64,000 bases of DNA from Apostichopus japonicus. Its lineage: Eukaryota > Echinodermata > Holothuroidea > Aspidochirotida > Stichopodidae. The notes below the pieces were generated by a model, which saw nothing but the letters and a program-made list of their open reading frames with translations, was not told where the DNA came from and searched no databases. The stretch lies in NCBI RefSeq assembly GCF_037975245.1, contig NC_092577.1, positions 24,983,398 through 25,047,397 on the forward strand. The letters are read 5' to 3'. Shown here piece after piece: positions 2,015 through 21,070 of this stretch; the first letter of the stretch is position 1; each line of letters opens with the position of its first letter. Both the position numbers and the translations under genes were made by a program.

Positions 2015-3266
2015 TATTTTTTTTAAAGATTGTTACCCAATTACTGTCTTGTAAATGTGCTATAGAACTGGTGTTTGTGGAACCATTTAACTCTGTATGA
2101 GCATTATCAGTGAGACTATCAGAGGGCTTGTTGCTACAAAGACTTCTAGTTTGCTCATTGTTAATAGTCAGGTTTATGGGGATATATGTCTGTACAGTGT
2201 CACATTTTCTGTACACAAGAATGTGAATCCCATTGTTTTGGATACATGTAGTGTAGCTGTCTCCAAATTGGAAATTAGAATTACTAACTGCTCCACCAAA
2301 CCAATTATACAGAATCGGTTTATCATGAAAACCATCTAAATGGGCAAACATATTGTTGTGCTTCACCACTGTTGAAAAATGGTTTAGTTCAACTACAACT
2401 GATGCAGTTCAAGTAATAACCACACTTAAATACATTGACATATTCATAAATGTGCAGAGGAGGGTTTTGATAGTTGAAGAGTTATATGAGGTTCTCCACT
2501 CAAAACAGTACTCTTCTTGTGCAACAAACAGGTAATTTAGAATTTATGTAAACGCCAACTTGTTTTTCTATAACTTGATCAATTAAGCCATTACACTTTG
2601 TATTGGCAGGTTGTCTCAAAGCCAAATTGTTTGCAGATATAAAACTGCTTTTTGTAGAGTAGCATGTTGAACATTGGGAAAGAGTTACATGTGATGCTGA
2701 ATTCACTTCCTCCGTCATCACACGTTTTCTACAAACCAACTAACAATTCAGCCCCCCCCCTTCCTTTTGGGGCCAAAGGCCAGTGGTTTGTCTTGAGTAA
2801 GAAAGTCCCACATAGGTTCACGCCAAGAACAGTTTGGCTTCCCAAACTTATCTCTCTGTTGAGACAGGCTACAACCTTATTAATGAGCTCCTGTGGGGTA
2901 GCTGATTCTACAAAAGGTCCAGGTCTCTACAAAACTTAAAAATTACAAAATAATAAACCTCGATTAATGAGTCAATAGCACATGAAGCCCCATGAAAATT
3001 GTGGTTTGGGCATCGTAAACCGTTTTGGAAATGAAAAAATGTTTTCTGAGAAATACATTCTAAATGTATACAGCAAACATGGAACACATAATAGGAAATA
3101 AAATTCAAGCATCTTGTTGACAACTTTGACCTGGAAATTGTTGGTTAAAACCAAGCAGTGGTCATTACTGCAACACAGGTAAATACTTTTTCAACTCCTC
3201 CGTCTAGGATATATGCTCAATGGTGCAATGGCAAATTCCAATCTTCACAGTTTCCCAAAGCTGGAA
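2015..3266. other. Gap without recognised gene
   Basis: A 123-aa open frame lies on the minus strand (1998-2369), next to the LINE remnant, but shows no recognisable motif. The rest is AT-rich with short frames. I see no terminal repeats. Confidence 0.45.
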
Positions 3267-3283
3267 GTCGTCGTCGTCGTCCT
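3267..3283 (-). repeat. Trinucleotide tail of the RTE-like LINE
   Basis: A short (ACG)n run, read on the minus strand, sits directly behind the stop codon and short 3' UTR of the adjoining LINE. Simple-repeat tails are usual for RTE-like elements. Confidence 0.7.
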
Positions 3284-5235
3284 ATGAGTCATGACTGACC
3301 CTTTGTGACCCTATTGATGATGACGTTCCAACCACTTCTATCCTGGGCATATCGGTGAGCTGCGCAGATGTTCATGCCGGTGATCTCTTTTATCCCGTCA
3401 GCCCATCGAACTTTTGGCCTACCACGTTTTCGTTGACCCTCAACATGACCTTGGGTAATGATCTTCTCCAAGTTGTCACCTTCTCTCCTAGAAATGTGTC
3501 CAAAATACTGCAGCTTGTTCTTATCTATCTTCTGACATAAGGTAACCTTCGCTCCAATTTGGTTCTTGACAAAATCATTTGACTTACGTTCCTTCCATGA
3601 TATCCTCAGCATCCTCCTCCAACACCACATTTCAAAAGCATGGATTCTCTTTCTGTCTACTGCTCCCAAAGCCCACGTCTCAGACCCATATGTAGCGATT
3701 GGAAAGACCAAAGCATTCATTATATGGATCTTGGTGTTCCTTGAGATCCCTCTGTCTTTCCAGATGTCAGTGAGGTTTATAGCAGATGATCTAGCCATGG
3801 CGAGACGCCGTCGTATTTCTTGTGAGCATCCACCATCATCCACAATCAGAGAGCCCAGGAAGTTGAAAGTGTTGACTACTTCGACATCCTCTCCATCAGC
3901 TTGAATATGATGGTCATTCTTTCCTCCACATATCATAACCTTTGTCTTCTTAACATTGAGGTACAGTCCGTATTCCTCACTGGATTGCTTGACTCTTTCA
4001 ATAAGGTCTTGAAGCTCTGCTGCTGTTCTTGCAAGTAGGGTAGTGTCGTAAGCATATCTAAGATTATTTATCTGGCGTCCTCCAATGGATACCTGTCCCA
4101 CAAAGTCATCTACAGCTAATCGCATGATGTATTCTGCGTAGATGTTAAAGAGATACGGTGACAAGATACATCCCTGGCGCACTCCTTGACCGATTGTAAA
4201 CCAGTCGCTATCACCACATTCTGTTCTAACTGTGGCCTCTTGACCTTCATACAAAGATTTTATCAGGATGATCACATGTGTAGAGAAGCCCATTTCTTTC
4301 ATGATTCTCCACAACTTATGATGTTGAACACAGTCGAAGGCTTTGCTGTAGTCAATGAAGCAGAGGAAAAGGGGTTGCTGGAACTCCGCGTTTTCCTCCA
4401 TCATATTCCTCAAGTTTCCTGTCTGATTTCTTGTCCCTCTTCCTTTTCTAAATCCAGCTTGCTCAGGTGGTAACTCACTTTCAATTTTGTTTCTTATTCT
4501 TTCCGCAATTATGTAGAGCAAGACCTTGCTTGCATGAGAGATGAGTGAGATGGTGCGGTTGTAAGCACACTCCCTTGTATCACCTTTTTTGGGTAATGGA
4601 AGAAACACTGCCCTTTTTCCAGTCCTCTGGCCAATCTTTAGTTTTCCATATCTTGTTGCACAATGTATGAATTACTGCAACTCCCTCATTGCTGCTTTCC
4701 TTAAGTAATTCTGCCTGGATATTGTCCACTCCTGGGGCTTTACCCCTCCTTAGCTTCTTCATTGCAAGCTCCACCTCGCAGAGAAGAATGTCTGGGTCAT
4801 CCTCAAATTCTTGATCTTCTTCACCCTCCTGTGTGTCATCATCTTTGGATGCATACAACTTTTCACAGTATTCCTACCATCTCGTCTTAATTTCATTTTC
4901 TTCTGTCAGGATGTTGCCATCTTCATCTTTCAGGACATTGAGCTTGGTGGTGGGTTTTGAAGTCAAAAGCTTGATGTTTTTAATCATATCCTTGGTGTTA
5001 TTTGTAGAGCTATCACGTTCCACTTCAGCACATTTTTGCTTGATGTAGTCTGATTTGTCACTCCTGATCTGCTGGAAGTCCTTCACATAAATTAAAATGG
5101 ACGACACAAACTTTGCTCTTCCCTCCTCAAAGTGAACATCCGTAGTGATCATTATCCTCTCGCATAATGGACTTGCCCACATCCTTGCATAATCAGCAAT
5201 AGTCTTCTCGCTATGCATCTTCCAGCGTTACCTAA
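3267..5235 (-). pseudogene. RTE-like LINE, 5'-truncated, three lesions
   Basis: Minus-strand remnant of an endonuclease/reverse-transcriptase polyprotein. 5218-4874 encodes the linker, 4858-4580 the start of RT (RRGKAPGVDNIQAELLK), and 4608-3289 the rest: CFIDYSKAFDCV (motif A), GVRQGCILSPYLFN (motif B), LRYAYDTTL (motif C with the first catalytic Asp replaced by Tyr), and the C-terminal block EMWCWRRMLRISW. Lesions: an in-frame TAG near 4870, a one-base frameshift near 4600, and the damaged YADD motif. The protein ends KGQS, as is common in this family, followed by a simple-repeat tail. The endonuclease is absent. RTE is my best clade guess. Confidence 0.88.
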
Positions 5236-6086
5236 CTTGTATACAAGACTTGATACCGGAGAGTTGTATTAACCATCAGCCGTTTACCGACTACATATGA
5301 ACGCTATATTCAGCAGTAGCTGGAGCGTAATAAGTGGAGATTTTATACCGTCAAGGCATCATCATTCATATCTTCGTATTCGAGCCTACATCTCGCAATT
5401 ATCAATTACAAGTTAGCGACTACGAGCAGTTGTATTCATCGTCGCCGCGAGCTACATAGCCATTACAGTACTGCATACGCGAGCGGCAGCGAGCAAGTCC
5501 AGACCAGAGCGTACTTACATAATGACTACTACTAGCGAACTAATATTACGTTTCGGACAAGTCACCGACTTAGTATATAAATAAACATATATCAGTTGGG
5601 AAGAGCAGTGAGTTACTACGAAGGACGGGTTGGAACGGAGGCTCCGTTACGTGAGCCACGTTCGACTGTACACACGTGAAGACATCGCTGGGCGCTGCCA
5701 TCTTTGTCTGGATCCGAACTTCGAGTGGACACTGCGAATTGCGGAATATCGAAGGAGAAAATAACATAAGTTTGGGGTAAGTTTATTAGTATCTTAACCT
5801 TCAACATATCCCACTGAAATTTCCGAAAAATGCCATAAAGTTTGCCGAAAGTTCCCTGCAGAATGGAAAACTCTTTTCTTCTTTTCTTCACCATATCAAA
5901 AAGTTCCAGGTCTACATCCAGGTCGCAGACACCCCATGAAAATCATTTGCTTGCAGTTCTCTTTTCTAAAGCCTGCTTGATATTTTTAATTCCGTGGTAA
6001 GAAAGGATTTCTTTTCTTTGTTGGCGTCTGGTAAATAGCTCTCCTTTGTACTTAGCAGTGCTTCTTTTAATTACTTTTCACCTACA
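5236..6086. other. Gap without recognised gene
   Basis: Short overlapping frames only (for example 5570-5894, minus), with no recognisable motif. Confidence 0.4.
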
Positions 6087-6370
6087 TCATTTAAAAAATT
6101 GGGTCCTTTTGGAGAGAATAGCGCTACTCATATGAACCGCTTCTGCATGAGTAGTTACCTTTACACCGTCCATCACCTCTGCATTCTTTATAACACTACC
6201 ATGAAAAGTTTTCTTTCCATCAGGTTCAACTGATATTTGCTCCACAGCCAAAGACAAATCAACATCCTTCAAATGGGCTATATCTCCACATGATAACAGA
6301 GACTGACTAGCATCCATGGCTGCAAATATGAAACTGCTGTCTTCATACAGAATATTTATCACAAGGTTGC
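6087..6370 (-). CDS. Candidate terminal exon, unknown protein
   Basis: A minus-strand open stretch follows an acceptor-like sequence (ATATTTGCAG, about 6350) and starts MDASQSLLSCGDIAH. It ends at a TGA at 6087. The peptide (for example GSVIKNAEVMDGVKV) is not recognised. It may belong with the exon at 139-357, as both lie on the same strand, but nothing proves this. It could also be transposon-derived. Confidence 0.25.
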
Positions 6371-7038: not shown

Positions 7039-8857
7039 ATAACATATATATAAAGAGTACTATTCGAGTTTGTTTACGCGTGGCAATGTCGACTTGTCGG
7101 CACAGGCTGATTTATTGAGGGGAATCTCAAAAACCGTTCCCCACGATGTCAATGATATTTTGGGGGGCGAAATAACCACTGTTGAGCTTTGGAAGGCGCT
7201 TTCGAAGATGAAGAATGGCAAGTCCCCGGGTTCGGACGGGCTTCCGAGGGAGTTCTACCGAACCTTCTGGGCAATAATAGGACCCGACATCAGAGCCGTC
7301 TTCGAGGACGCCTTCCAAAACGGACTGTTAAACCAAAGTCAACGTCTGGGCATGATTACTTTGCTGCCCAAGTCTGGGGACCCCTTGGATCCCCGTAACA
7401 AGCGTCCGATCACCTTGTTAAATGTGGACTACAAGTTGCTGGCTAAGGCTTTGTGCAACCGCCTTGCACTGGCTATGCCGCATCTTGTGGGTGATCTCCA
7501 GACTTGTGCAGTGAAGGGTCATTGCATCCAGCAGAACTTGTGGTTGATGCGCGACTTGACCGACTTTGTTATTGAGCGTGATCTGCCATGTGCATTGGTG
7601 TCTCTGGACCAGCAGAAGGCCTTTGACATGGTGGATCGCGGTTTTTTAATGAATGTATTGGAGACGTTTCAGTTGCACCCAAATTTTCGTAAATGGATTT
7701 CTGTTTTGTATCAGGAAAGTTTCAGTTCTGTTATCGTAAATGGGTTTTGTTCGGAGGTTTTTAACGTAGAGAGTGGGGTGCGCCAGGGGTGCCCTCTGTC
7801 TCCATTACTTTATGTTTTGTTTAGCGAGTCCCTCTCTCGTCTTTTGGAAAGGGACTCCAGACTTGTTCCATTCGTTGTGCCAGGGGGTGCCAAAGTGAAA
7901 TGCGCTCAATATGCAGATGACGTGACATGTGTTGTTTCGAGTCTGGGCTCCTTTCGCGCACTCTCGCAGGATTTATCTATTTTTGAGAGAGCTACCGGGG
8001 CGAAGTTGAATCCAGAAAAGACAAAGTGCCTTCGTCTTGGTAGCTGGAGATACAGAGACTTACCATTCGGTGCGTCGTGGTCGGATCAGAATATCAAAAT
8101 TAATGGTATATGGTTCGGCTACGATGCACCTGGTGATGTCACCTGGAGCGAGAGGGCTGAGGTATTTGAGAGCAGGCTCGAAACCTTTGGCACCCGCTGG
8201 CTTTCGATCCTAGGGAAAGTCACCGTAGTTAATCGTTTTGTTTCGCCCATCTTGTGGTACCCGGGCGCGGTGTATCCAATTCCGCGTCGCGTCCTAGTGC
8301 GGTTGGAGAGAGCGATATTTTCATTTATTTGGTCGGGTGGTACAGAGCTTGTCAAAAGGGCGGTAATGTACCAAAAACTGGAGAAGGGTGGGTTAGGGGT
8401 GGTTCATCTGGGAAGTAAGTTAACTTGTTTGTTATTTAAGCAGTTGTTTGTAGCGGTAACTGACCCAGGATTGCCTTGTTCATATTTTGTGCGTTTTTGG
8501 GGAGGTTTGCACCTGCGTCGATGGGTCCCGGCGCTGTTTAGCAACAGAGAACCGCATAGTAGTACTCCAAACAGGGTGGTGCGTGTCATTTGGTCCGCTC
8601 TGATTGAGTTGCCCCCTGTTGACCTGTCACGGCCGGCCCTCGTTCACAGTTCGTTGCGGGATAGGGCCTTGGGTGCAATTTTTGTACAGGGACGTCACCC
8701 TGTCGAAGTATGGCGTTCGGTGCATTCAAGGCTGAATGGTTGCAGGCTCCGTGACCTTGCATGGAGAATTGCACACGGTGCCTTGGTGACCAATCTGAAA
8801 AGGTATCACTGGCGATTGGGTGATGGACTGTGCCCGAGGACCGGCTGTGACAGCTTA
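7039..8857 (+). pseudogene. Tx1-like LINE A copy A1, left half (ORF2 reverse transcriptase)
   Basis: The frame is open from about 7049 to the transposon junction at 8858 and codes for the RT half of ORF2. Seen in order: KSPGSDGLPREFYRTFW, VSLDQQKAFDMVDR (motif A), GVRQGCPLSPLLYVLF (motif B), AQYADDVTCV (motif C), then the thumb and connection region up to CPRTGCDS. All catalytic motifs are intact. Copy A3 (40099-44977, minus) matches it closely and shows what is missing: the 5' UTR, ORF1 and endonuclease, lost by 5' truncation at about 7047. The C-terminal part resumes at 20502, beyond a DNA transposon. RT of this type copies element RNA at a nicked target. The Tx1/L1-like assignment rests on the knuckle-bearing ORF1 and APE domain of the full copies. 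Confidence 0.9.
8856..8857 (+). repeat. TA target duplication, left
   Basis: Empty-site copy A3 reads GACAGCTTAGAGAG (in LINE sense). Here GACAGCTTA precedes the transposon and TAGAGAG follows it, so exactly TA is duplicated. Confidence 0.88.
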
Positions 8858-8881
8858 CCCTGGTGGAAATTCCAGTTGAAC
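8858..8881 (+). repeat. Left terminal inverted repeat
   Basis: Begins CCCTGGTGGAAATTCC. It pairs with 20476-20499; differences at positions 5, 8 and 20 of 24. Confidence 0.88.
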
Positions 8882-9262
8882 TTTTGAACTGGGTTGAACT
8901 GGGTTCAACTGGAATTTTCTATACGGAAATTGGCCCAAATTTGAACTAGGTTGAAATGGGTGAACTGGGGTTCCCAACTGTTTCAACTATGTTTAACTGG
9001 GTCCAACTGGTTCAACTATGTTTAACTGGGTCCAACTGGGTCCAACTGGTTCAACTGTTTTACTGGGTCCAACTGGTTCAACTATGTTTAACTGGGTCCA
9101 ACTGGGTCCAACTGGTTCAACTGTTTTACTGGGTCAACTATGTTTTACTGGGTCCAACTGGTTCAACTATGTTTTACTGGGTTCAACTGGGTCAACTATG
9201 TTTTACTACTAATATTTTTAAATAGGTTGAACTGGGATTCTCAACTGGTCCAATACTCGACC
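8882..9262 (+). repeat. Left subterminal repeat array
   Basis: About 20 imperfect copies of a short unit of the form GGGTCCAACTGGTTCAACT, mixed with TATGTTTTACTGGGT spacers. The same units occur near the right end on the opposite strand. In CACTA elements such subterminal arrays bind the element's DNA-binding protein; that role here is inferred. Confidence 0.85.
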
Positions 9263-9944
9263 CGGTTGGGATCCCCCTAAGGGTTTAAATTTAAAGGTTA
9301 TTTGGTAAAAGAGCTCAGTATTACATATGACAATTGAATAGATAAGCTTAAATTCATGAATAGAAGGATGCCAACATATGTTGTTTGTAGAACTAAATAT
9401 ACTGTATTAAGAAAATGTGAAATCTACTACAATTTAAAAAAAACATGACATTGACGAGTAAAATTTGCTGAAACCTATTTTAAAATTACAAATAACATAA
9501 AAGGCAAGGTGAAATATACTGGCAGGAATCTGAGGAAGTATAAGTTATGAAATACATAAGTGAGAAAGACATGACATTGTGAGAAAGTTGATAACTTATT
9601 TAAGATATACAAATAAAATAAACGGCAAGGTGAAATAAAAATTTAAAAATAGGCAAGGTGAAACATACTGAAATATACTGGCAGGAATCTGAAGTATGAG
9701 TAATGAAATAAATAATCCTATAGTGTGAATTTGAAAAAAGGTACTTAAAGATTAAAAATATGAATCGATGGAGTGTAACAGTTTTTGACAAGATATTTAA
9801 GAATATACTCGGGTTCCAAAAGCAAATGTATATATAATTTAAGTTAAAGCACACCATCGTGGCAAGGTGAACATCTCAAAAGAAGATAAAACATCCATCC
9901 CTCCCCTCCCCTCCCTAGATATTGTAGCATGTCAGACTTTGTTT
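9263..9944. other. Downstream region of the BEN gene
   Basis: AT-rich. A phrase beginning GGCAAGGTGAAATATACTGG recurs near 9510, 9610 and 9660. No coding potential recognised. Confidence 0.5.
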
Positions 9945-12900
9945 TTATTGGTCCTTTTTCCTTTGTGTCCTGTTCAAATCCATTATTTTTTCTGTTATAA
10001 ATTTTTTAAACTTCTTTTGCTCGATGGCAAATTCCTCCTTAGAAAGGTTCTGCCTCTCCAACCGATCTTCATAGCATGCTACAAAAGGAAAGAAAAAACA
10101 GATTGATTAATCAAAAATGTCTACAGCTGTAAACATATGTATACGATAGAGAAATAAAAGCTTATGTTTGTACTATGTATATATATATATTTATACATAT
10201 ATATATACATATATATATATATACATATATATATACATATATATATGTATACATATATATATATATATGTAATATATACATCATAGCTCCCAAGTTTGGA
10301 TTAGTGAGATGTGGGTCCCAGGGCTGCCAGAGTAGATCTTTACACTAAGCAGAGTCCCACTATGTTGGCAAGTAATGCATCTCAGTACATGTTAGACATG
10401 CATGTATCAACATTTTTATTGCTTGTTTAACTCATGGTTCAAAAACAGTGCAATATTATTATTAATTTTTCACTAAAGTTATCATTGCTTTATACATCAA
10501 AGAAATTATGTTAGTGCATAATGGATAACATCCACCTTAACATTTATTATCATCAAGCTAGCATAACCACATGTTTGTTTATTTCTATAATATTATTTAT
10601 GCACCAGATTTGAAATGGAATATTTGAGATGTTGCACATATATATATATATATGTGTATGTATGGCAGGTTGCTGGTTGGCATTTTGACTCATGCCCACT
10701 TGCTCAAAATTGCATGTTAGTGTTTTGCCTAGCCAAAAATAAAGAGAGTGGGTACTTAAGTTCAAAACCTCTTATTTTATGATAAGTATTGGCAGGGTTG
10801 TAGCTAAACAATGTTCAGTGGGGGTGGACCGACACCAAAGTTTGGCACGTAGTGTACCACAACATTTATTTTCCAACAAATGACTCCCAGATTGCTTGAA
10901 TATATAATATAACTCCCATGTGACTAACCGTTTTCACTTACCTTTCATAGTGTCCAACTTCACTGGGCTTAGAGGTGGCTTCGCAGCATTCCCTTTAAAG
11001 CGGTTGCAAGCTTTCCCATCGACGGACTTGTCTTTTAGTTTGTCAGACCCCCAAATTGCCACGGCCAGATTCTTGACAAAAACAGAATTTTTATTTTGCA
11101 GTTGAAGCATCTCCCATGTCTTCACTGGTAACCAAACATTTTGTCCAATGTGAACCTGCAAAAAAAAATGAAACAAAATAGTCTTCACTCTTTAAAAAAT
11201 ACACTAATTCACTTCATTTTCATTTCAGGATAAGCAGTTTTGTTCGGCTGAGCTTTGGAGAAAAAAAAACCTTGTGCATTGTCTGTGTTTGTACTCCCGT
11301 GACCTCTGAAATTATTACTGATAAACGTGTTGATATTAGCTTTGAAATAGAATCACCCGAAATTACCTAAGAATTAGGTTTGTAAAATGCTAGATTGCAT
11401 GAAGTGTGGGCCGACAATTAAACCACGCAACTAGTGCTATCTTACCACTGCATTTGTTGCTACAAGGCGTATAGTACATGGGGCAACATAATGCAACTGG
11501 TTTTCTCGACTGGTTAACCAATGAACCGGAAATGCACAGCACTAGTTTGATTGTGATTGTTTGGTGTAGTTATCTGACTCACTGACCATACTGACGTGCA
11601 CAAGCATGCTTTGTTTGTAAGCCTTTCAAACTCTCTCAATAGTTATACAGTACATGATCACTTTTTTCCAGAGGAAGAATAATTGCCTCAAGTGTTACAT
11701 TCTGCCTTAATGTTGCTTAAACATTTTTGCATTACCTTATCACCAGTGGTTTTGTACTTAGAGGGGCGATCACTTCTTTCCATCCCACAAGGTTCCTCTT
11801 CAGGGACAATTTCGGGTGAAGATGGTGGAAAGGTGGTGTGCCTGGTTGGTACTTCTTTGGAATTTCTTGGATCCTTGACATCTGATGAGGGAAAATAATA
11901 AAAAAAATATTTATATTTAATTGATATTTGAATAGATTTATGGGTGCTGATCATGGTGTTATCTACACAATATAACAACACACTATAAAAAGTTTTTCAT
12001 TTTGTTAACAGTAGATCTATAGTGTACAAATGAAGCCTTACTTGAAATTAGATCGATAGTTTAATGTTCATAATGTTCAGTGTAGGGCATCCTCACATTT
12101 GTAGCATAAACGTGTATGCTGTATACTTCACTAATGACTTTCGCAAAGTATATCATTATGCCAATAGGACACTCCATGTTTGAACAACGGTCAAGGCAAT
12201 TGGTAAATTTTGAAATATCTGTGAGCCTCTTTTGATGGTGACATCTTAAATTGGAAACCTATGTCTAAATCAACTGGTTATTTGCACAGATATGGTATAC
12301 ATAGGCTATGTACATGTAACCTTGTTAGGTACAATTTCAAAATGCTTGTTAATAAGTGAGAACCTTCAACTTAATAAAGCAATACTACCTTTCTTTTCAC
12401 AATGTGGGCAGCTCAGTTTTTCCAACAGTGCTCTCTGCAGTCGGATGTTCAAATCCTGCACTTCTTTCATCTTTGCCCCCAGTTCCTTGTTTCTTGTCAT
12501 CAGCTCTTGGTTTTTCATCTCCAGACCATGGCATTTCCTCTTCATTTCTGGTTCATCTCCAAAAACAGCACTCCTTTTTCGGCACTCAAGCCGTTCTGAC
12601 AGCAATTTCTTAAGAGAGCTGCTCTTAGCTTTTTGTTGTTCTTTTTTTTTCTCTTTCTAAAAAAACATAATGGATTCCAAATTAGAATTTATTAGCTAAA
12701 TCAACTTGATAATTTTGATAACAAGTGTTAATAGCATATAATATTTCTACATGTGGATAATAATAATTTCAAATGTTCCCATCCAGTGCCATTGTTTTAA
12801 ATAAAATATATTTTGATTGTGGGATAAATGTGGTAGACCAAAGACCAAAATATTGTAGGCCTTTTTTAATAGTACTTCGAACAGCACATTCACATATCTA

Positions 12901-14374
12901 TCACTCTATATTAACACATACAATTTGTATTTTAGGCAGTGTTGTGAATATTAAATACCATGAGAGTGTACATGTAAACTTTTGGTAAGCACACAGTGGG
13001 CCACCAATCTGCATTTAGTTATCAGACACTTCTATAAGTTCATATCTGTTATTTATTAACAAACATATAAAACAGATTAAAGTCCCATTTGAACTTCCAT
13101 ACAGGTACAGCTAGGGGTTGGGCAAAATAATGTCCAAAGATAATGCATACAGTAGAAGAATTTTTTAACCAAGTTATGCAAAACATGGTTCTGGCAAATC
13201 TCAGAATTTGATTGATTAAACTTGTACAGGGAATGAAACTAAGTGGTTTACCTTACGTTGTGTGATTCCTGGGGATAAATGAATCATTGGGCTTTAGCAG
13301 CTTACTAGTTGGTAAAACCTTCAAATATTAATTATAGGCAAAACAATAAATGTTGAACTATGAAATCACTTCTAATCCCACCAACTCTAATAGCATTTGC
13401 AAATGTGGCCAAAGAGAATGTACTTATTGTAGCGTCTCATAAACAAGACATTGAACAATAAAATATTTACCCTTGCTTTCCCTGAATCTAACATTTCCTG
13501 ACGTAAAGATGACGAAGCACTTTCATCTTCAGAGGAGTCCTCCACTGATGTGTCAAAGACTTTGGACACTTTGACACGTGTGCCTTCTAACTTCTTCTCT
13601 AGCTCCTTTCTTGAAGCTGTAAACAAAAACAAAGAATGTGACTATTTAGTGGGTAAGATGGATCAAATGGTAAGCAGGGTTGCCATATCGGAGGGGGGGG
13701 GGGGGGATGGAGGGAGGAAATTGGAAAAATAAAACCTAAATTTCCACCCAGTAATTCTCTAGCCATTATTTACCCCCTGCTTTTAACACCCACACCCCTC
13801 CCCTCCACCTGCCTTCTTCAATTAAATTCCAAAATGTACTGGTTAAAGTACATTGTTCAAACATGCATAAGTTAAGCGACAAAATATTTATCCACAAACA
13901 TATTCCCTGTGTGGTTTACCGTTTTAGTTAAAGCCTCTTTACTTGTCAACACTCTTTATATGTTAAGCTAATTATGCTGTGTTGACCGAGGCTGTTACCA
14001 TCTGGTGTTCAGCTATGGTGATATGGATTAACTAGTGTAGGTGCACAAACAAAAGAGGCAAACTAACAACAGTTAATTATACTATGTAAATTGCATTGGA
14101 CACAATAGCCTATATGCATATAGACTAGCCAACAGTTTGAACAAGTACCTGCCAACAATAAAATTTGTGCCTTGTACCATGAGTCCGGGTCCTGTAAGTT
14201 GGAATCAATCTCTGTTTCATCGTCGCTGTCAATTGCCAGCCATTGGACCATATATGCTTTATTAGGTATAAAGTCTAGTTCATGCTCCGGGTGAAAGTTC
14301 TTAATGTGATTTACATTCACAATTTCACGTTCCTGATCTTTAAGATACCTAATGTATGCATAAGAAATTGACAT
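9945..14374 (-). CDS. BEN-domain, coiled-coil protein of the transposon (six exons, 377 aa)
   Basis: Exons on the minus strand: 14374-14149, 13616-13471, 12656-12389, 11881-11736, 11155-10942 and 10078-9945. All introns are GT-AG, and every junction keeps one frame, giving 377 aa with a TAA stop. Residues 1-75 form a basic/aromatic N-terminal module (SYAYIRYLKD to DSWYKAQILLL) seen in many invertebrate BEN proteins. Residues 76-124 are acidic and Ser-rich. Residues 125-213 form a Lys/Glu-rich coiled coil ending CPHC. Residues 263-377 are a BEN domain: GQNVWLPVKTWEML, FVKNLAVAIWG, GKACNRFKG, then the final helices from exon 6. BEN domains bind DNA or chromatin. The protein probably works with the divergent transposase, perhaps binding the subterminal repeats; this is inference. 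The last exon depends on the strong donor AAAG/GTAAGTG; without it the protein would stop nine bases later. Confidence 0.85.
10165..10275. repeat. AT microsatellite in intron 5 of the BEN gene
   Basis: A run of TATATA and TACATA units. A smaller TATATG run lies at about 10637-10652. Confidence 0.85.
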
Positions 14375-15485
14375 TATGCCTTATTAACTAAGCTAGGCTC
14401 CAATAAGCTAGGCAACTATAACGTTAGGTTATGTCTAACGTTAGTGAATGTAGTATTAGGAAACAGGTTTGTTAGGACTAGCCTATACAATAGTCCTAGG
14501 CCACTATCAAGTTTCAGTTCAATTCAAATATTTATGTTAAAAAGCACGTGTAAAATCAATTATAACGTTACAAGTATGTGTCAATAATATAAAGATCACA
14601 AACAAGGGAACTCAGCCGCGGTAATAATTTGAAATTGTTGATAAAATCTGTTACAAATTGCGATTCTGCGAGGCTTCTGTTAACGTGGGTTTGCGGTTTC
14701 GGAATTTATAAATTTAGCGCTAACGCAAAACAAATGTCAAAGTGCAAATTCAGTCGGATCATACCATTCTGTACTAGGAAGGCATTTTGCCTACCAATTG
14801 TTCAAATCGCCGAAAAAAGTATAACATAATTAATTTTTAAATTTGATGAACAGTAAACGTATTTTATTTTTATTTAATACGGTACAATAGTTTATTAGTT
14901 CAATCAAAACTGTGATAAATATGACCAAGATTTATTTTACCCCCCTCATAAGTTGGCTAATTTAGCAGTTTCAATATATTACGATACGGTTACTGCTTAC
15001 GAATTCTCATAATAACATTCCCGATACAATTACGCCTAAAATAAAAGCAGTCTTGTGTATTTTTCATCTGAATTGCGATTCTTGCCTGGTCGGCTATAGG
15101 TTTATTATATTGCTAGTTTCTTCGAGAAGTTATCTCATCTACGTGCAGTTATGTAAATACAACATTTATTTATACTTTTATTGAAGTGTAATACGGTTTT
15201 GTTGCGTCGTATTGACATTGTTTGGACATTGGTACGATACTGTACATGTATTTACTGCGTGTAACCCTAGCCTAGCCGGTAGTACGGAAAGTATTTATAC
15301 ACCGTGCATATTTTTTACGTACAGGCGTCCATTAAATGTACCTAACGAACTTCGTTGGACTCATACTAGCCTAATTCTAGGCTAGGCTGGTCTCGGTATG
15401 CACAAGAAATATTGACAAGTTCGAATCTTGGATATCGCTGTAGGCCCTAGACAAATGGATCCAAATCGAGGAAGGAAAAGGAACA
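14375..15485. promoter_or_regulatory. Divergent intergenic region of the transposon
   Basis: The 1.1 kb between the BEN gene start and the transposase start must hold both promoters if the genes are expressed. Repeated TAACGTTA-type palindromes occur near 14420-14450 and CTAGCCTAG motifs near 15270 and 15370. I see no clear TATA box. Confidence 0.4.
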
Positions 15486-18400
15486 ATGTTTCTGTTAGAC
15501 CTAAGAAAAAATATAAATTCTAGTGATGAAGAACCAACCATTCCTCGGAGGACCCTGAATCGTTATAAAAAAGGCAGTAAGACTCTCAAGAAGGGACAAT
15601 TAGAAAACAATTGGTCCAGAGATTTCAACTGTTCCACATCCAGTGAAGATGGTAGACCTAACGATGATGTCCATAGCAGTTACGGTGAAATGGTAAGAAA
15701 ACTTAATCAATAAGATATTGATACTGTAGGTCCGAATTCTCCAATATTTATTAGGTCCAGACCCAAGTGTTATGCTTAGGACCTGCCATGTAACTTATTT
15801 CACATGAAAAGGCTTTTAGACATTTATTTCCCCTTCAAATCAACCAAATTGCCTCACCAAACCAAAATTTAAAAAAAGGCATATTTTTATTTCCGGCCGT
15901 TAAAATGCCAAAATGATGTTTATTTTCGGCCGTTAGAATGCCAAAATGATACCCTACTTTCGTGTAGGTGCAGCAAACATTGCCTGTGATGATCTTTACC
16001 TGTGAGGGAACTCTACCTGCAGCGAACTAATTTGTGGTGAACTTCATTATAAGTGACTTGTATTCGTAATTACCTGTAAATAGGCATACATATATCCTGT
16101 AGGCATACAAACTAAGTGTCCCATGTCAAGGATCATTGGGTGTGGGTGCAGAAAAAAATTGTTCCTGATGCAGGATAATGAAAGCAAGATTGCTACCGTG
16201 GTGATTTTAAAAAAAATGAAGCGGCTAATTTTAATTATTTTTGCAGTGTTGTACTCTGTGCCACATTCGCTTGGCCGTATATCAATTGCCATACTTGTAT
16301 ATTTTTCAGGTTTCTTCATCTGCTTCTGAAGGGAATTGTTCTGGAAACACTGCAGCAGCTGACTCAACAGTTGAAAGGGAGAGTGATGATTCAGGTCCAC
16401 CATCTGAAGAACCCAGCAGCCCCTCATCCTCTTCAGAGACAGATAGTGATGTCCCAGCAGATGATGAAGCAGCATTCCAGGCAGATGAGACACTGAATGA
16501 ACCACTTTTCCAGGGATCACAAGTAACAAAGGCTGAGGTAATCCTGATGGTCATGACTTTTGTGATGCGGCATTGTCTGTCTACAGCTGCCATGGTGGAT
16601 CTTCTGCATATTATTAATAGCATATTAGGAAGAGTTGTTATACCAGCATCAAAATATGTATTTGAGAAGTTATTTAAAAGCAATTTTTTGAATTTATCAT
16701 TTCATTTTTATTGCAGTTATTGTTTGAGCTTTGTTAGAACCTGGCAAGGCGTAAATGTAGGTGTTGTCTCTTGCCCACATTGTCAGAGAGATTGCAATGT
16801 TGGAAACATGCAAAATAGTAACTTTTTCATTACATCTAGTCTGAAGCATCAGATAAAGACTTTATTTGAAAGGGAGGACATAACAGTCAATCTGGCTTAT
16901 AGGTACAACAGACATAAGAAACAGGAAGGAAATTTGGAAGATATTTTTGATGGTGAAATTTACAAAAATCTTGAAGAAGTACATAATTTTCCAAATAACT
17001 TCACATACACTTTTAATACAGATGGAATGCCAGTGTTCAAGTCTGCAAGTTACTCCCTTTGGCCAATCTATATCATGATTAATGAGCTTCCACCAAGTTT
17101 AAGAATGAAAAATTTACTGCTTGCTGGTGTATGGTTCGGCCAAAAAGGGCCTCGTATGAATATATTTTTAGAAAAGTTTGTAAGAGAAGCAAGAATTTTG
17201 GCTGATGATGGTGTTGAGTGGGAAAATGAGGGTGAAATAATTAGAAGCAAATTCTACGGAATTTGTTGTTGTGCTGATGCTCCTGCCAGGGCAGCTTTGC
17301 AAAACCGCCTGCAGTTTAATGGATACATGGGCTGTGGTTTATGTTATCATCCAGGGCGAGCAGTAGAGAGGGTGGTCAAGTACCCTGTTGATGTTTGTGA
17401 TCATGCTGAGCGATGTGATGATGAAGTGCTGGAAGACATGGTCAAGGCTTTAGATGAAGGTCGCATCATACGTGGTGTCAAAGGTCCAACACCTGTAATA
17501 AATTTGCCAAAGTTTCCATTAGTCTGGGGTTTCCCTCCTGATTTCATGCACTGCCTTCTCCTTGGTGTAGCAAGACAACTTGCTGAACTTTGGTTTAGTA
17601 GCCCAGCAAACAGTGTCTATTATATTGGTCAACCAAATGTTTTGAATAGGCTTGATAAAATTCTCAAATCAATTAAGGTTCCATCATTTGTGTCTCGTAT
17701 GCCACGACCAATTACAGAAAGGAAACACTGGAAAGCCATTGAGTGGTACAACTGGTTATTTTATTTTTCCATCCCATGCTTGCATGGTGTTTTACCAGAG
17801 CAGTATTTGAGACACTTCTACGCACTTGTTCAGGGTTGCTACATCTTACTTCAAAAGTCCCTTAGTCCAGAGGATGTCAATACAGCTGATATTTTATTGT
17901 TTAATTTTGTAGGTCATATGCAGTTGCTTTATGGGGAAAAAGCAATGACTTCCAATGTCCACTCATTAGTCCATCTGGCAAAAAGTGTCAAAATGTGGGG
18001 ACCTCTTTGGACGCATTCATGTTTCCCCTTTGAAACAGCAAATGGAGAAATCAAGAATGTCTTAAAGGGCAATAGGGGTATAATGCTACAAGCCATGTAC
18101 AAGTTTTTCCTTGTAAGGGCTCTGCCATTGTTTGGAGCAAATTATATGGTATCCGACAGAATCAAAGCCTTCTGTAAGGAAATGCTTTCTCCCCGAAAGC
18201 TCAAGCCAACAGAATTTATGGATTCAGTGGAATTATATGGCGCAGGCTCTGTTCAGCTATTAAGTAATGCTGAGCAAAATGCTTTACTTGTCAATGAACT
18301 TGAAGTAGTAAATGAAGCAGTGGTATATAAGCGTTTGGGGAAAGATGGTATCATATATCATTCACAGCAATACACCAAAGCTACACGGCGCAACTGCACA

Positions 18401-18676
18401 ATGTTTTACTTGTCAAATGGACAGGTTGGAAGGATCCAAAAAGTGTTATGTATACAAAATGAATGCATTATTTTGTATAAAATGATGCACTTTGTCCCAG
18501 ATAATGGTTTTCAAGACCCACAAAACAATACTGATGTTTTCCACATAAAGTTGTGTGCACATCTTTCTGAAAATGTCTCAGCAATTGCAGCAACTGAACT
18601 GTGTGGAAGTTGTTTTTTAGTTGATGTTGGCGAGAGGAGTTTCATATGTTTCCCAGCCAGCTATGTGGCTTTATAG
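15486..18676 (+). CDS. EnSpm/CACTA tnp2-type DDE transposase (two exons, 857 aa)
   Basis: Exons 15486-15692 and 16310-18676; the intron is GT-AG (donor ATG/GTAAGA, acceptor TTTTTCAG) and the frame is kept. The N-terminus is acidic and Ser-rich. A Cys cluster (CPHCQRDC) precedes the catalytic core. The core matches the tnp2/Transposase_21 family: FNTDGMPVF with D307, then LWPIYIMINELPPSLRMKN and IFLEKFVREA; PPDFMHCLLLG with D480; HSCFPFETANGE with E644, preceded by VHSLVHLAKSVKMWGPLW. These give a full DDE triad for cut-and-paste transposition. CxxC-type residues (GCGLC) sit between the first two acids. No stop or frameshift is seen in exon 2. The start is uncertain: an upstream ATG at 15455 (MDPNRGRKRNN) runs into a stop in another frame and might be the true N-terminus after a small indel. 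Confidence 0.9.
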
Positions 18677-19856
18677 TATTGCACATATTTACTTGACAAA
18701 GATAGGTACACAGCACTAATTCATTTCATTATGTGAACTCAACAACATTGTTACTTATGATTAAGAACAGAGAGTTAGCAACCATTAATTATATCAATCA
18801 TATACAATACACATGCTAACACACACAATAAAATGGGGGCCTTGGCCTTCTTTTTTTATGTCTAATGAAACCCTGGGAAGAACAATCCATGAGCAGGCTT
18901 TTGTTCACATGTTCTACATGTTTTGGGCCAGAAAGAGTTACTGTACATATTTTACCTGTGGTCAGTGCAGTGCAATGACAGCTGTTCAGCTAGAAAGTTG
19001 CTATCTACAGGGTTTCACTCAACCATGAAAGTCATGGGGATAATTCATTTAGGGGTGCCTGATGCTGCAGCCTTTAATTGTTAAACCTTTGTGAATGCAA
19101 CAATGCAATTTCTTTATACTTCATGCAATATATAGTTTGGACATGGAATATTACTTTTTCCATCTTACACTGTATTATGATATTACAATGTGCAAATATA
19201 TAATACATTATATCAATGATTATATATTATATAATATAGAATAAATCTATATTATAAGTTAATACACTGTGTGTTTTGTTTATATTATTTTTTATCATTT
19301 CATGGGGGAGGTAACTATCAGTACTTTATTACAAGTTCTTAGATTAGAACTAGGGCATTGGAATATGTCACTACATGTATAGACTGTATATATATATATA
19401 TAAGTCGATCGGTGAATTAACTGGTTCCTCATCTTACCATTAAGCCAATCTATCCTACTTTTACTTCTATATCTTCCTCATCAAAAATTACCTTAATACT
19501 TCATGCGATACAGTTTGAACATGGAGTATTACTTTTTTCAACTTATTAAGATATTACAATGTGCAAATATATAAAACATCATATCAACGATTTTGCATGA
19601 TAAAGAATAAAACTATATTATAAATTGAATGCACTGTGTGTTTTGTTTATTTTTTATCCTTTTATGTGGGAGGTAAATAACTATCAGTATTTTATTGGTA
19701 ATACATCATTACAAGTTCTTAGATGAGGACCAGGGCATTGGCATTGGGAAATGTCACTAGCTTCCTGTATATACTATCAATTAATTGGTTCCTGTTATTA
19801 ACATAAAGCCATTCTATCCTAGTTTTAGTTGTATATCTTCTTCATTAAAAACCTGT
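18677..19856. other. 3' region of the transposon with a 371-bp near-tandem duplication
   Basis: After the transposase stop, a block near 19115-19480 recurs near 19490-19850 with a spacing of 371 bases (compare ATTACAATGTGCAAATATA at 19182 and 19553). The copies differ by many substitutions and small indels, so the duplication is old. Confidence 0.75.
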
Positions 19857-20470
19857 AAAAACCAACAGCCTACTTCAAACCTGTGCAAAACCAGTGAACC
19901 CTTGTTCAACCCCAGCTAGGCAGGTTCACAAGTCAACAGTCTAAACCCAGTTGGGCCAGTGCAAAACCAGTGAAACCTAGTTCAACCCAGCCGGGCAAGT
20001 TCACCAGTCAACATAGTCCAAACCCAGTTGGGCCAATGTGAAACCTAGTTCAAACCCAACAGGGAAATTTCACCAGTCAACATAGTTCAAACCCAGTTGG
20101 GCCAGTGTGAAACCTAGTTCAATCACAACAGGGCAAGTTCACCAGTAAACACAGTTCAAACCCAGTTGGGCCTGTGCAAACCAGTGAAACCTAGTTAAAC
20201 CCCAGCTGGGTCAGTTCACCAGTCAACATAGTTCAAACCCAGTTGGGCTAGTGCAAAAACCAGTGAAACCTAGTTGAAGCCCAGCTGGACCAGTTCAAAC
20301 ATAGTTCAAATTCAGTTGGGCCTGAACAAACCCAGTTGAACATTGTGTAAACCCAGTTGAACGTAGCTCATGTACAGCATAGCCCAGTTGGAACCCAGTA
20401 AGACCCAGTTAAACACAGTTAAAAACCAGTTAAACATAGTAGGCCCTAGTAGAACCTAGTTGATTTTTTA
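19857..20470 (-). repeat. Right subterminal repeat array
   Basis: Many units such as AAACCCAGTTGGGCCAGTG and AAACCTAGTTCAACCC on the plus strand. They are the reverse complement of the AACTGGGTT units of the left array, so the two arrays face each other. Confidence 0.85.
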
Positions 20471-20475
20471 ACTGG

Positions 20476-20499
20476 GTTCTACTGGAATTTCTACTAGGG
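20476..20499 (-). repeat. Right terminal inverted repeat
   Basis: Read inwards from 20499 on the minus strand it begins CCCTAGTAGAAATTCC; 21 of 24 positions match the left end. TA (20500-20501) follows. Confidence 0.88.
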
Positions 20500-21070
20500 T
20501 AGAGAGTACTGCCCATGTTTTTTGGCATTGCCCCTTTGTTTTGAACTTGTGGGAGTGGTTTCAGTCCTGGACCGACCGTTTAACGGGAGACCGTTCCTGG
20601 TCGGTAGGACAGGGTTTTGTCTTGTATGGATTAGATCCTCCAGTTTGTTCCGTTGCTGTGTTGCAGCGTATTATTTATGTTTGTTCTGTTGTAAAAGAAC
20701 TTATTTGGAGGAATAGATGTGATGTTGTTTTTAGGGGGAAATTTGCCAGTTGGCAGGCAGTCCTGGAGGCGGTGAAGTCTGACATTCGCCTTCAGGTTGA
20801 AGGCGATTTTCGCCGTTTATCTAGGGCTGCCTTTTTTGGACGGTGGTGTGCTGGGGAAGGGTGTTTTGTTTCGCTGCGTGCTGGTCGTCCTTTTGTAGTT
20901 TTTTAATATTTCAGTGGGGGGTTGGGCGTTTTGTCTCTGCAGGTCGGTGAGCGTATGTACTTTTTTTTTTGGCTCGCTTGACCTGAGGTTCGTTTGTAAG
21001 AATGGGATGGTTTGGTAGTGCCGTTTGGCCGTGACGTTTTGTATCCCGTATGACGGGTCACGTAAAAAGC
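20500..21070 (+). pseudogene. LINE A copy A1, right half (ORF2 C-terminus and 3' UTR)
   Basis: The frame resumes at ESTAHVFWHCPFVLNLWEW and runs to a stop at 20906. The His and Cys here continue the Cys pair that ends the left half (CPRTGC), forming a zinc-binding zf-RVT-like motif split by the DNA transposon. The 3' UTR (20907-21070) ends in GTCACGTAAAAAGC and has no poly(A). The right copy of the 17-bp target duplication follows directly. Confidence 0.9.
21045..21057 (+). promoter_or_regulatory. 3'-terminal hairpin of LINE A
   Basis: CCCGT, loop ATG, ACGGG. Other copies have CCCGC/GCGGG at this place (40112-40124 on the minus strand), a compensatory C-G to T-A change. Likely recognised by the element's reverse transcriptase; inferred from the position 13 bases before the 3' end. 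Confidence 0.65.

Follow-up and report, generated by a model that had tools for sequence, protein, structure and literature searches.

Does an animal DNA transposon encode, beside its transposase, a second protein that does the job of TnpA in the plant En/Spm element? The question is raised by a stretch of 64,000 nucleotides from Apostichopus japonicus (NC_092577.1; hereafter the window), in which an initial annotation had seen a tnp2-type transposase paired with a BEN-domain protein. Our data make it fairly probable that this is a cut-and-paste element of the animal CACTA/EnSpm type whose two divergent genes work together, with the BEN protein in a TnpA-like job.

Structure and insertion site of the element

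The two-gene element comprises 11,642 bp (8858–20499, without strand assignment), starting with CCCTGGTGG... at 8858 and finishing with ...CTACTAGGG at 20499, as delimited by its ends, its flanks, two full-length relatives (C16 and C12) and end pairs. The terminal inverted repeats are CCCTGGTGGAAATTCCAGTTGAAC at the 5′ end (8858–8881, + strand) and, at the 3′ end, a repeat with the complement CCCTAGTAGAAATTCCAGTAGAAC (20476–20499, − strand). The element is inserted into a LINE and splits its reading frame into a left (7043–8855) and a right part (20502–20906), both on the + strand. Between frame and element lies a TA target-site duplication (TSD; 8856–8857 and 20500–20501, unstranded), which follows from the flanks as well as from the empty site: joined with one TA, the flanks match all 40 LINE copies listed without interruption (40 copies scored of 485 candidates; 99–100% over positions 2–320 of 320). 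The ends and the duplication had thus been placed exactly in the initial annotation.

Two additional full-length copies, inserted elsewhere (C16 and C12; 11,737 and 11,664 bp), have the same ends and both genes, which is the recurrence of the divergent pair between matching ends that had been named as support for the pairing. Two damaged copies also carry transposase and BEN gene. All five places listed with a transposase identity of at least 83% have the divergent BEN gene, and in two gene-less derivatives, whose complete sequences were read, ends and arrays are retained without any significant match to either gene.

The TSD always has 2 bp, namely TA, TT, AT, TA and TA in the window copy and those four of the six fetched copies in which both ends were found; the TT and AT duplications rule out a strict TA target rule. 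CCC...GGG termini are found in the window, C16, C12, C9, C21, P34, L026 and L027, and by eye the 2-bp duplications extend beyond the window family (P34 AT, L026 TC, L027 TA). At L017, a single end was found. Inverted terminal repeats together with subterminal repeat arrays agree with EnSpm/CACTA (CMC) elements. Instead of the CACTA core and 3-bp TSD of the plant type, the element has the CCC first bases and the 2-bp TSD of the TRC branch (the latter in 5/5 window-family copies with both ends). Its ends, its TSD and its transposase identify it as an animal CCC-type CACTA element (TRC/EnSpm), and the 11.6-kb element is young.

The transposase

The transposase gene on the + strand encodes a tnp2-type protein (Transposase_21, Pfam E=1.8e-9, 37.5 bits against a cut-off of 28.6). 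As open in the window, exon 1 extends from an internal ATG at 15486 to 15692 and exon 2 from 16310 to 18676 (both +), the latter including Transposase_21 and the residues D307, D392, C411/C414, D480, H620/H624 and E644, in the numbering of the initial annotation, which counts from ATG 15486. The ATG at 15455, common to the other copies, is out of frame in the window owing to a gap of 20 bp after 15514 relative to both other full-length copies. The three full-length copies have one lesion each in the transposase frame, and therefore no intact transposase–BEN pair was seen.

In the transposase alignment, D307 is present in 9/9 rows with a residue at this place and D480 and E644 in 11/11 each, and D307, D392, C411, C414, H620, H624 and E644 are conserved in all rows covering them. 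The triad initially given as D307, D480 and E644 consists of residues that all exist as numbered and are conserved, but the second catalytic aspartate is probably D392 rather than D480. By its sequence, the protein would then have a D-D-E triad in which C(2)C and H(3-4)H lie between the second D and E, as described for EnSpm/CACTA transposases (PMC12730594, in part). Together with Transposase_21, the CCC ends and the 2-bp TSD, this bears out the assignment to an animal EnSpm-like lineage.

A second, divergent gene

The BEN gene lies on the − strand, divergent from the transposase gene, with about 1.1 kb between the two starts. Its six exons have GT/AG sites and are predicted to join in frame into 377 aa, as had been proposed. 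Exon 1 (14149–14374) encodes an N-terminal domain, exon 2 (13471–13616) an acidic/basic linker, exon 3 (12389–12656) a basic region and a heptad-like helix (coiled coil by eye), exon 4 (11736–11881) a proline-rich linker, exon 5 (10942–11155) the first part of the BEN domain, and exon 6 (9945–10078) its last part and the stop, all on the − strand. The BEN domain scores above the curated Pfam cut-off (E=2.2e-7, 31.4 bits against 23.2). A BEN profile of five lineages matches the solved structures of BEND6 (4.7e-14), 4ix7 (1.7e-11), which we take to be Insv, and NACC1 (1.6e-6), and a PDB search with the single protein sequence gave chance-level matches (best E 0.82). The element thus encodes a second protein with a predicted DNA-binding domain, as expected of a TnpA-like partner. 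For the N-terminal domain, AlphaFold without alignment reached a mean pLDDT of 51 for exon 1, too low for the model to be of use. An SH3/Tudor-like fold was a by-eye impression that we dropped as unsupported, the best E in a Pfam scan of four N-terminal pieces being 0.11.

All three full-length copies keep the BEN frame free of indels and the splice sites intact. Compared with C12, the window differs by 2.20% in BEN exons and 2.16% in introns; compared with C16, by 0.35% and 1.04%. Over six pairs with few changes, omega is 0.25–0.75 for BEN and 0.24–0.73 for transposase exon 2. Constraint on the BEN sequence is weakly shown by these values.

Recurrence of the BEN partner in distant lineages

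Among 55 Pfam BEN matches and 48 transposase places listed in the genome, there are seven BEN–transposase pairs no more than 15 kb apart. In all seven, BEN is upstream and divergent, and none shows any of the three other arrangements (0.03 expected for each). Transposase lineages 27–35% identical to that of the window are also accompanied by a BEN gene. In the eleven lineages considered, including the window's, the BEN domain is above the Pfam cut-off in four, has weaker evidence in four, is doubtful in one and was not seen in two (C11 and C5, where the 10 kb upstream of the transposase showed no such gene). Six of the lineages were chosen by transposase; none of these has a Pfam BEN match within 15 kb, a BEN-like gene in divergent orientation was seen in three (C16_1.37, C17_15.3, C1_18.49), a doubtful N-terminal piece in one and neither in two.

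With exons joined, the BEN domains of P34 (2.5e-10), P12 (2.6e-8) and P167 (1.3e-5) exceed the Pfam cut-off, and that of C16_1.37 (8.6e-4) stays below it. When exons are joined where the splice consensus is best, the intron in the BEN domain has the same aligned place and phase 1 in the window, P34, P12, P167 and C16_1.37. The BEN exons of C17_15.3, without good splice consensus, and the single BEN exon of C1_18.49 are unrecognised by Pfam, and the profile match that links them to the other BENs is weak (probability 36%, E 3.8e-4). HMM matches to the pieces from the window, P34, P12 and P167 are no test, because the HMM was built from them. At the C3 locus L017, a seemingly convergent arrangement was rejected, as the convergent exon belongs to a separate repeat starting at L017 6029; the lineage's own divergent N-terminal piece is located at 939–1169.

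The pairing itself has strong support. Since the BEN partner recurs in distant transposase lineages, we regard it, on this comparative evidence, as an old component of the element and not a local capture. A host gene captured at one locus, the outcome to be expected had BEN been absent from all other copies with these ends, is ruled out by the pair at the other family places and in the distant lineages. A captured gene might also hitchhike in one family without any role in the element, which would fit the 48 of 55 Pfam BEN matches more than 15 kb from every one of the 48 transposase places listed, and the equal divergence of BEN exons and introns between window and C12. This is highly improbable in view of the same side and orientation at five family places and in distant lineages, the conserved intron place, and a BEN frame kept in 3/3 full-length copies despite the transposase lesion in each.

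Different EnSpm lineages could also have picked up BEN several times independently, a convergent partnership that would be compatible with a TnpA-like mechanism. The BEN proteins are hardly alike across lineages outside the BEN domain, profile comparison of the N-terminal domains found no match (C16/C17_15.3 against P12/P167 and against the window), and another repeat with different ends carries a BEN frame, all of which would suit repeated pick-up. By contrast, strand, side, order of parts and the place and phase of the BEN intron are the same in five lineages, and sister transposases have sister partners (P12/P167, transposases 61% and BEN N-terminal pieces 50% identical; C17_15.3/C1_18.49, transposases 51% and BEN exons 42%), so that we judge independent pick-ups unlikely. 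By eye alone, the N-terminal domains of distant lineages resemble each other.

Subterminal arrays and a model for transposition

Arrays of a short unit adjoin both ends. The 5′ array (8887–9248, +) has AACTGG 17 times, with a single CCAGTT in 8858–9290, and the 3′ array (19947–20431, −) has CCAGTT 11 times, with a single AACTGG in 19851–20499. The 3′ array is thus the 5′ unit inverted, and the 10.6-kb interior counts 4 and 1 of these motifs. Palindromes of at least 8 bp are not in excess in the window arrays (two at the 5′ end, reached by 58/200 shuffles; three at the 3′ end, reached by 43/200), unlike known BEN-dimer sites, and we discarded palindromic dimer sites there. An excess exists in the L026 5′ and P34 3′ arrays (0/200 shuffles), with none in the L026 3′ (78/200) and P34 5′ arrays (40/200); because the P34 interior, taken as a control, is also high (1/200; interior of the window element not high, 22/200), palindromes are weak evidence. 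Known BEN sites include CCAATTGG (PMC6911014, in part) and CGCG and CATG (PMC11472053, in part). The CAACTGG units and the P34 palindromes with CGCG and CATG cores resemble such sites, a post hoc likeness that serves as a lead only.

In the model we favour, the RNase-H-like transposase (D307, D392, E644) would cut at the CCC ends and join them to a target of 2 bp. The BEN protein, spliced as drawn and probably dimeric via the exon-3 helix, would bind the AACTGG/CCAGTT units of the inverted arrays, thereby marking the ends and pairing them for the transposase; it would probably also control the promoters between the two genes. Both proteins would be needed, and BEN would act like TnpA in plant En/Spm.

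A less likely view, though one deserving serious attention, is that BEN belongs to the element as a chromatin or transcription regulator (a self-repressor, insulator or anti-silencing factor on the divergent promoters) outside the transposition complex. Fly BEN proteins are repressors and insulator factors (PMC6911014, in part), the divergent starts are close together, and TET/JBP genes in fungal DNA transposons are thought to counter silencing (PMC12730594, in part). However, the candidate units sit inverted at the two ends and not between the genes, and gene-less copies keep the arrays, as they should if these sites are required for movement.

Implications and comparison with known systems

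A conserved BEN partner of an animal CACTA transposase appears to be new: the literature searched, outside which fall Repbase, Dfam and most subscription papers, gave no published description of a tnp2 transposase paired with BEN. The animal CACTA branch would gain a recognisable, conserved second protein, where formerly there was one without detectable relatives (PMC1636069, in part). In animals, the plant two-protein model can therefore be put to the test: protein and sites are defined, and the gene-less copies can serve as existing substrates. The element also provides a specific candidate for the origin of BEN DNA-binding factors, one open to phylogenetic test. That BEN was the ancestral end-binding partner of animal CCC-type EnSpm elements, with the cellular and viral BEN factors (Insv, BEND6, NACC1) as domesticated descendants, is speculative and on present evidence improbable; a parallel is RAG1, which descends from a related transposase.

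In plant En/Spm, TnpA sites are subterminal and TnpA is not known to be a BEN protein; plant CACTA elements have a 3-bp TSD. Like En/Spm, which encodes TnpA and TnpD (PMC1636069, in part), the window element combines a Tnp2-type transposase with a second, here predicted, DNA-binding protein and short-unit arrays near both ends. It differs by CCC ends and a 2-bp TSD instead of CACTA ends and 3 bp, and by two divergent genes instead of one spliced transcript unit.

Transposase_21, CCC first bases and 2-bp direct repeats at the ends are shared with the animal TRC-type CACTA elements, SmTRC1 and its relatives in Tribolium and Aedes (De Marco et al., 2006; PMC1636069, in part); the Tribolium element starts with CCCTAGTAG and the window family with CCCTAGTAG/CCCTGGTGG. 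The non-transposase proteins of TRC elements, PrA and PrB, arise from alternative splicing and are described there as without detectable relatives, whereas the window element has a separate divergent gene whose product is recognisably a BEN protein and is conserved across lineages.

In the sequence-profile comparison, most of the BEN domain is covered by the matches to NACC1 and the BEN-solo factors (Insv/Elba, BEND6). These are cellular regulators, Insv acting on short sites, TCCAATTGGA (PMC6911014, in part), whereas the window BEN is encoded within a transposon beside the transposase. Lepidopteran BEN genes were transferred by bracoviruses (PMC5704228, in part), which is distinct from the transposase–BEN pairing. 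Viral contigs searched with our transposase gave no match. A second paper on lepidopteran BEN genes reportedly likewise concerns transfers by bracoviruses. Finally, the TET/JBP genes of fungal transposons are comparable accessory genes acting on DNA or chromatin, in EnSpm-like and other elements (PMC12730594, in part); TET/JBP is an enzyme passed between many superfamilies, whereas BEN is a putative DNA-binding partner fixed in its position.

Structure of the element and its insertion site

The element spans 11,642 bp (8858-20499) and carries terminal inverted repeats, CCCTGGTGGAAATTCCAGTTGAAC at the 5' end and CCCTAGTAGAAATTCCAGTAGAAC (given as complement) at the 3' end, which are bounded by TA on either side, in agreement with the exact ends and TA duplication of the initial annotation. 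It splits the reading frame of a LINE, and the flanks joined with a single TA (320 nt) are 99-100% identical, over positions 2-320, to all 40 LINE copies listed (40 scored, 485 candidates). The insertion is clean and its empty site exact; the LINE family that it hit still has nearly identical copies. Contig C17 holds 31 of the 40 LINE copies listed.

On the minus strand, six predicted exons (14374-14149, 13616-13471, 12656-12389, 11881-11736, 11155-10942 and 10078-9945) join in frame, as had been proposed, and at sequence level give a 377-aa protein with a Pfam BEN domain at residues 288-364 (E 2.2e-7; 31.4 bits versus a cut-off of 23.2). The plus strand encodes an 857-aa frame (predicted exons 15486-15692 and 16310-18676) that matches Pfam Transposase_21 (E 1.8e-9) and, weakly and under its Pfam cut-off, DUF4218.

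Among 11 aligned transposases, D307, D392, C411, C414, D480, H483, H620, H624 and E644 are kept in every row with a residue there. C411 lies 19 residues past D392, and E644 20 residues past H624. The catalytic region of RAG1 comprises D708, C727/C730, H937/H942 and E962; its D-to-C spacing of 19 and H-to-E spacing of 20 are the same as in the window transposase. Because C411/C414 follow D392 but precede D480, with spacings as in RAG1, we read the putative triad as D307, D392 and E644. Of the triad first suggested, D307 and E644 are thus retained; D480 is conserved, yet its place after C411/C414 speaks against it as the second catalytic aspartate.

Related copies and gene-less derivatives

All comparisons refer to one assembly (671.6 Mb, 35 contigs), for which the lists of transposase and BEN-exon matches are lower bounds. 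Transposase sequences of at least 83% identity occur at five or more places (the window, C16:19.77M, C12:7.58M, C17:16.51M and, in pieces, C17:22.10M), and BEN exons of at least 77% identity coincide with these same five, so that the expected recurrence of the divergent pair at several loci was found. Among the matches listed, stray BEN exons lie twice on C2 (exon 6, 80%) and at C16:29.85M (68-70%), and contig C17 holds 30 of 61 transposase rows.

The copies on C16 (11,737 bp, TSD TT) and C12 (11,664 bp, TSD AT) are full length and, like the window copy, keep the BEN frame free of indels and all its splice sites; the C17b copy is damaged. Divergence of the window copy from C16 and C12 is 0.35% and 2.20% in BEN exons, 1.04% and 2.16% in introns, and 0.30% and 1.06% in transposase exon 2. 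Over six pairs each, omega ranges from 0.25 to 0.75 in BEN and from 0.24 to 0.73 in transposase exon 2. These divergences and omega values weakly indicate constraint on BEN over the short time scale separating the copies. All three full-length copies carry a single lesion in the transposase frame: in the window, exon 1 lacks 20 bp after 15514, so that the ATG at 15455, also present in C16 and C12, is no longer in frame; in C16 and in C12 the lesion is a single-base indel in exon 2. We claim no copy as active.

Pairing 40 listed 5' ends (of 103 candidates) with 40 listed 3' ends (of 94) yielded at least 13 elements, of which three measure 11.6-11.7 kb and the other ten 1.4-3.0 kb. Two derivatives were analysed in full, C9 and C21, the latter from an end-pattern search and outside these 13. 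Both have a TSD of TA, retain ends and arrays, are 93% identical across 2.8 kb, and show no significant transposase or BEN match over their whole sequence. On the top strand, AACTGG occurs 17 times and CCAGTT once in the 5' 433 bp, and CCAGTT 11 times and AACTGG once in the 3' 649 bp; the 10.6 kb between has 4 and 1 of the two orientations. One unit is therefore present in opposite orientation at the two element ends.

The BEN-transposase pairing in other lineages

With 55 BEN hits and 48 transposase places listed (61 rows less 13 judged to be additional parts of copies already counted), seven pairs lie within 15 kb, against a chance expectation of 0.03 per arrangement, and in all seven BEN is upstream on the opposite strand. 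Four belong to the window family and three to the lineages P34, P12 and P167, whose transposases are 30-35% identical to the window's. P34 is a complete element (12.9 kb, CCC...GGG ends, TSD AT), 98.8% identical across 12.5 kb to a copy on C15.

For six further transposases with no Pfam BEN hit within 15 kb, we examined the 10 kb upstream. In three (C16_1.37, C17_15.3, C1_18.49) a divergent BEN-like gene, first spotted by eye, is split into an N-terminal piece, a basic linker, a helix and a BEN-like exon; for C3_30.9 a possible N-terminal piece is all that was seen (HMM E 0.55, doubtful), and no BEN gene was seen in these 10 kb for C11 and C5. In total, 8 of the 11 lineages examined have a BEN or BEN-like gene, one is doubtful and two show none, five of the 11 (window, P34, P12, P167, P3) having been picked for a nearby BEN hit. 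Upstream of the C11 transposase, locus L031 (C11:3825200-3835199) contains a divergent frame (minus strand, 1252-1710) with a helix and Cys-x2-Cys, which could be a different partner protein.

N-terminal pieces match between C16_1.37 and C17_15.3 (56% identity, E 3e-22), P3 and C16_1.37 (E 5e-16), whose transposases are sisters (57% identical), and P12 and P167 (E 1.6e-15); between C17_15.3 and C1_18.49 it is the BEN exons that match (E 1.8e-13). Among the lineage pairs compared, partners are closest where transposases are closest. Profile comparison of N-terminal pieces between groups gave no match, and those of the window, P34, C1_18.49 and C3_30.9 were assigned by eye and position only. Locus L017 holds a C16_1.37-group transposase (3930-6032) with a divergent N-terminal piece (939-1169).

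BEN-domain homology and other BEN-bearing repeats

BEN exons were joined at predicted splice sites, taking the best-consensus of several possible joins. P34 (2.5e-10), P12 (2.6e-8) and P167 (1.3e-5) exceed the Pfam cut-off, and C16_1.37 (E 8.6e-4) falls under it; Pfam recognises neither the joined C17_15.3 exons, with a poor donor consensus, nor the single unjoined exon of C1_18.49. These last two match the other BENs weakly by profile (probability 36%, E 3.8e-4). Searched against solved structures, a profile of the window, P34, P12, P167 and C16_1.37 matches BEND6 (4.7e-14), 4ix7 (1.7e-11; deposited as RE55538p, which we take to be Insv), NACC1 (1.6e-6) and Blastoderm-specific gene 25A (3.2e-6; presumably an Elba protein), followed by BEND3 and BANP (E 0.02-0.07). 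With best-consensus joins, the intron within the domain has identical aligned position and phase in all five lineages. The P12 BEN exon at L021 weakly matches DUF4806 (E 0.026-0.035), termed a BEN subtype in a zebrafish paper (PMC11075544); fish DUF4806 genes may be related to transposon BEN proteins like that of P12.

A separate repeat of about 3.6-3.9 kb (L038:2273-6146; L039, reverse strand, 2618-6230; copies 99% identical) has ends ACAGTACCGC...GCGGTACTGT, a possible 5-bp TSD (in one copy of the two read) and a 119-aa BEN frame, with no match to the transposases tried. Seven places in the BEN hit list carry one identical score. Another, 6.4-kb element with CCCAGG...CCTGGG ends was fetched at three loci (L026:1239-7657, L027:1392-6937, L017:6029-10000), adjoining at 6029 the 3' end of the L017 transposase. 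It has a 5' array of palindromic AACAGGTACCTGTT units and retains a BEN exon, with an in-frame TAA in L026; 41 of 75 listed BEN-exon rows, with matches of 44-57%, may represent the same kind.

Possible mechanism and relation to known elements

The sequence data establish that the element has moved in the past, its ends and TSD, the presence of two genes that have long been associated, and the inverted end arrays. We infer that the BEN protein would bind the terminal AACTGG/CCAGTT arrays and, by analogy with TnpA in En/Spm, deliver the element ends to the transposase; it may also control the promoters of the two divergent genes. The main alternative is that BEN acts purely as a regulator or anti-silencing factor. 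In the portions of the literature covered by our search (Repbase and Dfam outside its scope), we found no description of a BEN gene paired in this position and kept across lineages. As regards a TnpA-like role, De Marco et al. 2006 (PMC1636069) expected such a function for the schistosome protein PrA, with no relatives of it detected in other elements. The same source describes the animal TRC branch of CACTA; CCC ends, a 2-bp TSD and Transposase_21 are common to TRC elements and the window element, features by which we place the latter in this branch.
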